From the NCBI RefSeq assembly GCF_003846445.2, contig NZ_CP030139.2, positions 2,149,223-2,213,222 of the forward strand: 64,000 bases of DNA, given 5' to 3'. Positions 16,198-18,808 of the stretch are shown in pieces. The stretch's first letter is position 1. Each line of letters starts with the position of its first letter. A program made the position numbers and the translations under genes. The notes under the pieces were generated by a model. That model was not told the origin of the DNA. It worked only from the letters and a program-made list of their open reading frames with translations, and made no database searches. This stretch comes from Synechococcus elongatus PCC 11801 (GTDB taxonomy: Bacteria; Cyanobacteriota; Cyanobacteriia; Synechococcales; Synechococcaceae).

Positions 16198-16935
16198 CTA
16201 GAGACTGAGAGGATCTTTCGTGACTTCTACCGCTTCCTCAGGTTCAGCGACGAGGGGCAGAGTCTTTTTGGAGAATCCCCAGATAAACAAAATGGCAATG
16301 CAGCTGACCATTACCCATTCTGGGGGCGTCAAGGATTCATTGATCGATCGCACCAACAGGCGCAAACCGACAAGCGCTACTGCACCGTAACCGGCTGACT
16401 CGAGGTTGTCGTATTCCTTCAACCAACGGATGAACAAGCCTGCCAAGAAGCGCAGGGTAATCACGCCAATCGTGCCGCCCAACAGAACTAACCAAGTTTC
16501 TCGCGAAACCGCGATCGCGGTCGTCACACTATCTAAGGAGAACGCTAGGTCAGTCAGTGCGATCGTAGGGATGGCAGCCCAAAGACTCGTGAAGCGGTGA
16601 TGGTGCTTTCCCTCATCCGTATCACTACTGTCAGGCCGGAAGTAGTTAAAAGCCAGCCACAACAAATAGAGGGCACCGGCCAACTCTGCCAGTTGAAACT
16701 GAGTGACCCAAGAAGCTGTCAAAATCAACAGCATCCGCAGGACATAGGCCACCACCAAGCCCAGATTCAGGGCTTTCCGTTGCTGCTCTGGATTCTCGAT
16801 CCCGCGCGCGATCGCAGCCAAAGCCACCGCATTGTCTGCAGACAAGACGGCTTCCAAAACCACGAGTAGCGGCAGCAGTAGCAATAAGTCACTACTAAAG
16901 TGTGGGGTTCCGAACAATTCAGTGAGCATGATCAA
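16198..16935 (-). CDS. TerC family integral membrane protein
   Basis: 245 residues (an ATG two codons downstream of the first is also possible) with about seven hydrophobic helices. The family signature is seen in VLEAVLSADNAVALAAIA near residue 27 and the repeat-like ALTDLAFSLDSVTTAIAVS, whose acidic residues are thought to bind metal. TerC/Alx/MntX-type proteins are linked to Mn2+ or Ca2+ export; in oxygenic phototrophs relatives help load manganese at photosystem II or export excess Mn. Substrate is inferred from the family only. Confidence 0.88.
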   Translation of the reverse strand: MIMLTELFGTPHFSSDLLLLLPLLVVLEAVLSADNAVALAAIARGIENPEQQRKALNLGLVVAYVLRMLLILTASWVTQFQLAELAGALYLLWLAFNYFRPDSSDTDEGKHHHRFTSLWAAIPTIALTDLAFSLDSVTTAIAVSRETWLVLLGGTIGVITLRFLAGLFIRWLKEYDNLESAGYGAVALVGLRLLVRSINESLTPPEWVMVSCIAILFIWGFSKKTLPLVAEPEEAVEVTKDPLSL

Positions 16936-17060
16936 GGGTGATTGCCGAAGCAGCCAGCATCCAAGGCGAGAGTAGGCCTAAATTCTAGCCCAGTCTGCTG
17001 AGCGGGCGAGGGCAGCCCAAGTGCAGCGGTACAATCAGTCGGCTTGCCGAGCCGCTTAGA

Positions 17061-18221
17061 ATGAACCCAACCGGAACCGCGATCGCTGTCCAAGTCCGTC
17101 ATCAAACTGCCATGGACGCTGACTTCGCACACCGCAATCATCCACTGGCGTTGGCAACGACTGTTCAAGCCCGTTTACAGGTCTACCAACAGCTGCGCCA
17201 GCAGTATCCCAATGCCAGCCTGACAGCAGAGTTAGTCAGCGTCCAAGGTGAGCAATTTGTGGTTCGGGCGCAAGTAGAAATTGCAGGGCAAACACTGGCC
17301 ACGGGGTTGGGAGCTGCCACCCAAATTGAAGAGGCTGAAGATCGCGCCCGGCTGAGGGTGTTAGAGCTGTTGGGGCTCAGCCCCGAGCGAATTGCCCCCA
17401 CCCAATGGGAAGTTCAAGTTGTGGCCCAGGCTACGCCGGTTCTATCGGCGACAGCCAACGATCGCGTCTTGGAAGCTGCCAGCACTTCGATGACAGCCCC
17501 TGCAGCCCCGGCGATCGCTTCAGAACTCGAGTCCGAGATCCCTGCTTTCGACGCAGTTGAAGCAGAGCTGGAGGAAGTTACTCCAGCCCCGCGCGTTGTC
17601 AAAACGCCACCTGTTGAGCGCGATCGCCCTAAACCCTCACAACCCCAACCGGCAGCGACACCGGCTGAGCTGCCCTTGCTGGATCTCGAGCCAGCGCCAA
17701 CGGCTCCCTTATCCACCGTGCCAACCGACTGGTCAGAAGACCTAGCGGAAATTGAAGTCGAGCTGAAGCGACTGATGTGGACGGAAGCCGAGGAGCAAGC
17801 TTACCTGTTGCAACACTTCGGTAAGCGATCGCGTGCCCTGATTGCTGACTACGATCAGCTTTTGCTCTTCCTCGATCACTTGCGATCGCTGCCAACTCCG
17901 GGGCTAACTCCTGCAACACCCGTCGCTGCCGAACCTGAGCCAGTCCGAAGCGTTTCCTTGCCACCAGTACCCACTCCTGAACCGGCGGCACCCCCCGTGA
18001 TCGCCCCGCCAGAGGTACAGCCCAATCGCAGTGAGGCGATGGAGCTCACCAGTGCTGCAGTGAAACGACTGGGTTGGACGAATCGCCAAGGCAGCGATCA
18101 TCTACGCCAGACCTACGGAAAGGCCAGTCGCCAACAGTTGACGACTGAAGAGCTACTGGATTTCTTGCACTATCTGCATCGACTTTCGCCCCCTCCCAGT
18201 ACCGAAGCTGTACCGTTTTAA
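17061..18221 (+). CDS. Modular protein: possible Rad52-like N-terminal domain plus duplicated helical module
   Basis: 386 residues. Residues about 30-105 (ARLQVYQQLRQQYPNASLTAE, then VRAQVEI and TGLGAATQIEEAEDRARLRVLELLGL) resemble the core of phage/cyanobacterial Rad52-type or related annealing proteins, by pattern only. Residues 105-220 are a Pro/Ala/Glu-rich linker. Two copies of a 55-residue helical module follow at 223-279 and 322-376, sharing RL-W-T, a Tyr-Leu or His-Leu pair, (F/Y)GK-SR and ELL/LLL-FL--L, with another proline-rich linker between. It begins divergently from the TerC gene and precedes a hypothetical gene by about 55 bases. Function unproven; DNA binding or recombination mediation is inference. 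Confidence 0.7.
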   Translation: MNPTGTAIAVQVRHQTAMDADFAHRNHPLALATTVQARLQVYQQLRQQYPNASLTAELVSVQGEQFVVRAQVEIAGQTLATGLGAATQIEEAEDRARLRVLELLGLSPERIAPTQWEVQVVAQATPVLSATANDRVLEAASTSMTAPAAPAIASELESEIPAFDAVEAELEEVTPAPRVVKTPPVERDRPKPSQPQPAATPAELPLLDLEPAPTAPLSTVPTDWSEDLAEIEVELKRLMWTEAEEQAYLLQHFGKRSRALIADYDQLLLFLDHLRSLPTPGLTPATPVAAEPEPVRSVSLPPVPTPEPAAPPVIAPPEVQPNRSEAMELTSAAVKRLGWTNRQGSDHLRQTYGKASRQQLTTEELLDFLHYLHRLSPPPSTEAVPF

Positions 18222-18277: not shown

Positions 18278-18808
18278 ATGGGACGACTCGTCTCGCTGGA
18301 AATTGTGACGCCGATTGAGCAAGCCCCCGCGTTATTTGAGCTGATTATTCAAAAGACGACGCCCTCAACTGAACCGGAACTGCGATCAATTCTGGCAACC
18401 AAAACTGCACCTCCAGATATTTGTCTCTGTTTTGTGGTGGCCTTGGATGAGGTGGTTAAAACGCTCGATACACAAGCGATTGAACAAACTGATCATGTTG
18501 CGATTGGTTGTGTTTGGACAGCGTTTCGGTTCGGCGATCGCTATCTGCTTACGAGCGCCACTTCGTCCTACTCAGCGATGGCAAAAGCCTTTGAAGAAAG
18601 TCAGTCTATTCAATCCTTATTCACTGACATTGCCCAGCAAAGTGCTTCCGAAGCGCTCTTCCTACTCGATGACTGGAATCAGTCTCAATTACTCTGGCGT
18701 AGCGATCGCCCTATGATTCAAAATGACAAGGAATATTCCAATCCAGTGGATCGGCTCTGCCAAGAAATAATGATGCCTTTCAGCTCTACACAAGACCGTC
18801 GAAATTAG
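18278..18808 (+). CDS. Hypothetical protein
   Basis: 176 residues, soluble, mixed alpha/beta. It contains IVTPIEQAPALFELIIQ, CLCFVVALDEVVKTLD, VAIGCVWTAFRFGDRYLLTSATS and a low-similarity tail. It follows the modular gene by about 55 bases on the same strand and may share its transcript. Its 3' end faces the CPA2 antiporter gene with 3 bases between stops. No family recognised. Confidence 0.6.
   Translation: MGRLVSLEIVTPIEQAPALFELIIQKTTPSTEPELRSILATKTAPPDICLCFVVALDEVVKTLDTQAIEQTDHVAIGCVWTAFRFGDRYLLTSATSSYSAMAKAFEESQSIQSLFTDIAQQSASEALFLLDDWNQSQLLWRSDRPMIQNDKEYSNPVDRLCQEIMMPFSSTQDRRN

Follow-up and report, generated by a model that had tools for sequence, protein, structure and literature searches.

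A two-module slr1353-family protein of Synechococcus elongatus as a candidate SSB-docked, annealase-like accessory factor

To our knowledge, no chromosomal annealing factor of the Rad52 or RecT type has been described for cyanobacteria. A described system of comparable plan is phage lambda Red-beta, in which an annealase-type core is followed by a flexible three-helix C-terminal domain (CTD). The Red-beta CTD (residues 193-261) is a three-helix bundle like lambda Orf whose partners are lambda exonuclease and E. coli SSB rather than DNA; SSB binding is lost in the K253A mutant and believed to be affected in K214A, and the isolated annealing domain is active in vitro while recombination in vivo requires the SSB interaction (PMC8303780). 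In the Rad52 superfamily the core (elements i-iii, PMC9870868) is a three-stranded sheet with a helix lying across it, followed by another helix. A beta-hairpin and helix alpha1 before this core have been described as characteristic (PMC11783212) and as variable (PMC9870868). The slr1353 family (NCBIfam NF058667) typically combines an N-terminal domain (N-domain) with one C-terminal module. A single paper naming slr1353 was found and its topic is antisense RNA: the 40 most abundant transcripts of Synechocystis include just two antisense RNAs, one of them directed against slr1353 (PMC3516471). A review of cyanobacterial recombination genes (PMC5101192) mentions neither slr1353 nor any annealing protein, and a search in general terms of the main text of a genome-wide S. 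elongatus transformation screen (PMC7125226) did not find the gene.

The S. elongatus PCC 11801 family member considered here has the same N-domain and module plan with two modules, separated by a 40-residue linker, where the NF058667 model has one. It shares the two-part plan of Red-beta. Its N-domain is half the size and lacks the beta-hairpin, it carries two CTD-like modules, its locus has no nearby exonuclease partner and there is no sequence match to Red-beta. Modelling and profile comparison suggest an accessory role on single-stranded DNA (ssDNA): the protein may be an annealase-like, chromosomally encoded factor docked on SSB, a reading to which we give a probability of about one in two.

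The gene and its surroundings

The window, meaning the whole 64,000-nucleotide stretch of DNA that was analysed, contains an ATG-initiated open reading frame (ORF) of 386 amino acids at exactly 17061-18221 on the forward strand. Its product matches NF058667 over residues 53-278 (E 2.4e-56; 191.8 bits against a curated cut-off of 100) and is a member of a real, conserved and uncharacterised family. An earlier note, made from the sequence alone, had placed an ORF with a duplicated module here, and both hold: when the modules are cut out singly, module 1 (E 7.2e-17) and module 2 (E 3e-18) match the same end of the independent model NF058667 (about positions 183-239 of 239), which makes a chance likeness untenable. 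The modules are 33% identical and contain the motifs that the note had named, as RLMWT/FGKRSR/LLLFLDHL in module 1 (residues 236-276) and RLGWT/YGKASR/LLDFLHYL in module 2 (residues 336-372). The linkers, which it had called proline-rich, are Pro/Ala/Glu-rich and have low pLDDT in an AlphaFold2 (AF2) model built on 30 family sequences. The features of the locus are as follows.

16198..16935, reverse strand: divergent TerC-like membrane protein gene, named from sequence; upstream in the genus and at most loci of family f19
17031..17210, no strand assigned: block 90-100% identical to the sister species, spanning promoter/leader and first codons
17061..18221, forward strand: slr1353-family gene, 386 amino acids, single copy in the genome
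17151..17378, forward strand: N-domain (residues 31-106), alpha-beta-beta-beta-alpha with a predicted Rad52/dsRBD-like core; pLDDT mostly 88-98
17334..17375, forward strand: helix motif AEDRARLRVLELLG (residues 92-105), pairing with RMAETRAKARAL of a phage/plasmid family
17379..17726, forward strand: linker 1 (residues 107-222), disordered, Pro/Ala/Glu-rich; net charge -10 over residues 111-217
17727..17897, forward strand: module 1 (residues 223-279), three-helix, Red-beta-CTD-like; 'DWS..L..I..EL.R..W....E..YL' version common to f19
17898..18023, forward strand: linker 2 (residues 280-321), Pro-rich
18024..18188, forward strand: module 2 (residues 322-376), three-helix, Red-beta-CTD-like; R336, W339, K354 and R357 invariant or nearly so
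18189..18218, forward strand: C-terminal tail ...STEAVPF, SSB-tip-like
18278-18808: downstream ORF of 176 amino acids without a Pfam or NCBIfam match

Pfam and PHROG scans of the protein gave sub-threshold matches only (GemA, phrog_286, phrog_11717), and PDB sequence searches with the whole protein, the N-domain profile and the module profile gave nothing notable. A scan of genome contigs with the window protein found no close relative, a module-profile search found no further copy of the module in the genome, and direct tblastn of the slr1353 family and of the module against phage records found none.

Relatives in the family begin near residue 41, so the true start may lie 3' of 17061. Between the two genus members, the 180 nt of 17031-17210 are 90-100% identical per 30 nt against mostly 73-90% in the flanks, and dS is 0.05 in the first 30 codons against 1.1-2.1 in the domains and linkers. 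Such conservation could reflect a true start further downstream, a leader with a regulatory function or an antisense transcript. A structured RNA was rejected for this block (folding z of 0.68 and 0.63, no Rfam family). Neighbours in other genomes are an RNB exoribonuclease, ClpP or UbiX gene, mostly divergent or distant, and the downstream ORF was matched, among the loci compared, only in the sister species (78% identity). A conserved neighbourhood was rejected as a functional clue, with no DNA-repair partner at the loci compared.

The N-domain, its fold and its relatives

In the AF2 model the N-domain consists of a helix (28-48), three strands (52-62, 65-74 and 77-86) and a last helix (89-103). 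The three-stranded sheet, the helix across it and the second helix expected of Rad52-type single-strand annealing proteins are all present, as they also are in double-stranded RNA-binding domains (dsRBDs; RNase III, Loquacious), which share this alpha-beta-beta-beta-alpha fold. The model has no strands outside 52-86 and so lacks the beta-hairpin, as well as alpha1, of Rad52-type annealases. VIA-align gives human RAD52 in complex with ssDNA a Z of 7.9 (76 residues, 13% identity), tied with dsRBDs at 7.7-7.8, and Foldseek lists dsRBDs first; the RNase III dsRBD superposes at 1.6 A over 63 residues with 25% identity. The tie fits the SCOP classification, in which dsRBDs share a superfamily with the Rad52 pairing domain. 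Profile scores of the N-domain against Rad52 (15.0) and Erf (15.7) are not significant, which says little because an Erf versus Rad52 control also fails. Against cyanobacterial dsRBDs the N-domain profile scores 21.2 (shuffle maximum 17.5). P50, A92, E93, D94, A96 and R99 are invariant across the family.

The nearest profile relative is a phage and plasmid family, RM (phrog_22961). Three proteins from other classes of the phylum join a true module, as the window protein has, to an N-domain of the RM form 'GIGDASPxNV...RMAETRAKARALRDAVNIG', and in a scan of bacterial genomes the family turned up, on plasmids as well, in Chloroflexi, Rubrobacter, Armatimonadetes and other groups. Built without members from the phylum itself, the RM N-domain profile scores 30.2 against the slr1353-family N-domain, where two sets of 100 column shuffles reached at most 18.9. 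In the matched helix, R89 of RM, itself invariant, aligns with the invariant R99. RM scores 22.9 against Erf (1 of 100 shuffles as high) and 12.1 against dsRBDs (22 of 100). Among its phage relatives, those of Thermus phages (24% identity, E 2e-3) carry the annotation 'RecT-like ssDNA annealing protein' and others 'DNA repair and recombination protein'; the RM gene of Paenibacillus phage API480 sits between a host-nuclease inhibitor and SSB, and a Terrisporobacter phage Erf has an RM C-terminal domain at 61% identity. RM is therefore probably an annealase family. It has the same order of parts as the window protein and differs from it by an insert between strand 3 and the last helix and in its C-terminal domains; RM is often found on mobile elements, whereas the window gene is a conserved chromosomal gene.

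The earlier note had likened the N-domain to Rad52-like annealing proteins. That likeness stands for the predicted core fold and for the kinship with an annealase-like phage and plasmid family; it does not extend to a significant Rad52 or Erf profile match, and for this reason the proposal that the protein anneals ssDNA is not supported. Because it lacks the hairpin and showed no profile link, we do not file the protein in the Rad52 superfamily.

The main rival is that the N-domain is a degenerate dsRBD-type domain, type-B-like, which serves dimerisation or protein contacts; the protein would then be an SSB-docking scaffold or adaptor that tethers partners to SSB-coated DNA with neither DNA contact nor annealing. 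The dsRBD fold fits the N-domain as well as or better than an annealase core, and the domain is net acidic (family mean -1.8), which is odd for a DNA binder. Both the GPxH loop and the KKxAK helix start that contact dsRNA are absent, as in non-binding dsRBDs: strands 52-62 and 65-74 are joined by a two-residue turn, the last helix begins IEEAED, and neither the whole protein nor the N-domain matches Pfam dsrm. However, the RM match is far stronger than the dsRBD match, RM itself has no dsRBD match, and RAD52 fits equally by fold, so that we regard the scaffold as unlikely, though the most serious of the alternatives.

The modules and the proteins that carry them

Folded alone, the module is modelled with a pLDDT of 91.6 as a compact three-helix bundle with the topology of the Red-beta CTD (TM 0.75-0.77). 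Red-beta CTD structures take ranks 1, 2 and 4 of the PDB in Foldseek (TM 0.72-0.77), with probabilities of 0.80-0.92 against 0.20 or less for all others. Their Z scores are 8.2, 8.1 and 7.8 against 4.8 and 4.7 for the next folds, XRE and POU domains. The Foldseek E of 1.5 is not significant alone, as one would expect of a helical domain of just 60 residues, and the match carries weight through the gap to the next matches rather than through the E-value. There is no notable sequence match to Red-beta (0 bits). The module profile scores 19.2 against the C-termini of the Rad52-family alignment (shuffle maximum 17.7) and 22.6 against those of RM (shuffle maximum 19.7), with 100 column shuffles each. 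In the full-length model the helices span 225-237, 242-253 and 264-276 in module 1, which has lower confidence, and 323-337, 341-352 and 362-375 in module 2. Residues W339, L348, R357, L360, E364, L365, F368 and L372 are invariant across the family. R336 lies near the position of Red-beta K214, and K253, when matched by range, would correspond to L375, which is not basic.

The tails had been proposed to bind DNA or protein; since the Red-beta CTD binds proteins and not DNA, protein binding is the likelier half of that proposal. An improbable alternative keeps the other half, with the modules as HTH-like DNA-binding domains and the protein as a DNA-bridging factor with two DNA-binding tails. 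The XRE and POU matches accord with it, as does an McrB-like fusion whose module occupies the N-terminal place of McrB's DNA-recognition domain, but the Red-beta CTD fits far better and the modules carry a net acidic charge (mean -2.0).

Other cyanobacterial proteins have the module fused to their C- or N-terminus: DuOB proteins, a UvrD/helicase-IV-like helicase, retron-type reverse transcriptases (RTs), CyRepA1 plasmid replication proteins, an McrB-like ATPase and DUF5895-type plasmid proteins. Most of these partners act on DNA. Among individual cases, two retron-type RTs have N-terminal TPR and a C-terminal module (L077:2265-4034 and L078:2884-4737, both reverse strand), an McrB-like AAA ATPase has an N-terminal module (L072:1830-3146, forward strand), and an ORF adjoining an slr1353 gene (L013:1288-2151, reverse strand) has four modules in a row without an N-domain. 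A third alternative, in which structured RNA is the ligand of the N-domain and the modules work in RNA-associated complexes, draws on the dsRBD-like fold and on a divergent upstream RNB-type exoribonuclease gene in 11 genomes, and is the least probable of all given that dsRNA-contact motifs are absent, the neighbours are divergent and form no operon, and the module's other hosts act on DNA.

The SSB of this genome ends in ...RDPDSDLF and its SSB-like protein in ...YDDIPF, which would be suitable acidic-aromatic docking tips. The window protein itself ends in ...AVPF; 16 of 30 relatives end in Phe and none of the f19 proteins does. A self-binding or competing SSB-like tip is possible. Similar C-termini occur in the module-bearing retron RTs (TDDPPF and LDEPPF; L077, L078) and in a DuOB-type protein (DDIPY; L066).

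Distribution and proposed role

Of 291 genomes spread over the phylum, 131 match the slr1353 family; the class to which the window belongs, with 138 genomes sampled, accounts for 124 of these. By our own tally from the genome listing, 11 of the 14 class genomes without it belong to genus g31, which has genomes of 1.6-1.7 Mb. The typical plan is an N-domain, a disordered linker of variable length and one C-terminal module. Both genus members have two modules, as does each of the 14 f19 genomes read. In a tree of 59 modules the 16 first modules of the S. elongatus/f19 lineage group together as a single clade (98/86; recovered in 100% of 200 bootstrap trees), which makes the doubling older than the separation of S. 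elongatus and f19; the second modules are not resolved as one group. A duplication unique to S. elongatus was rejected on the same grounds. In two-module proteins of three other loci (L006, L083, L084) the modules stand in direct tandem without a linker, and these duplications appear independent. The family spans the whole class and its members usually have one module, so the special link to the natural recombination of this species that had been suggested is not supported. Between the two genus members dN/dS is 0.03 in the N-domain, 0.02 in module 1 and about 0 in module 2, against 0.10 and 0.27 in the linkers; purifying selection on the N-domain and on each module is strong.

The protein most likely works with SSB on ssDNA. 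As an annealase-like accessory factor, it would use its N-domain, with a predicted minimal Rad52-type core fold, to oligomerise, to contact ssDNA or both, while the two flexibly tethered modules, whose fold is also predicted, may dock on the acidic C-terminal tips of SSB. If the core is oligomeric and every chain brings two docking modules, tetrameric SSB-ssDNA could be bound multivalently; the N-domain would thereby be brought to gaps, forks or incoming ssDNA and may assist annealing or remodelling there. Against this role speak the acidic N-domain with its equally good or better dsRBD fit, the absent hairpin and alpha1, the non-basic counterpart of Red-beta K253, the shortness of the helical domain behind the Red-beta CTD match, and the neighbours of the window gene, which are not DNA genes.

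More broadly, and tentatively, nearly all cyanobacteria may carry a domesticated, minimal chromosomal relative of phage annealing proteins that is tethered to SSB and doubled in the S. elongatus/f19 lineage, with the module acting as a cyanobacterial 'SSB plug' that retron RTs, helicases, restriction-type ATPases and plasmid replication proteins also carry; we hold this to be somewhat less probable than the role proposed for the protein itself. If these readings are true, the family would offer a candidate, open to experiment, for the SSB-linked handling of ssDNA in S. elongatus, a polyploid model species with natural transformation, and its module would help to predict which proteins of the phylum, among them defence proteins, are docked on SSB.
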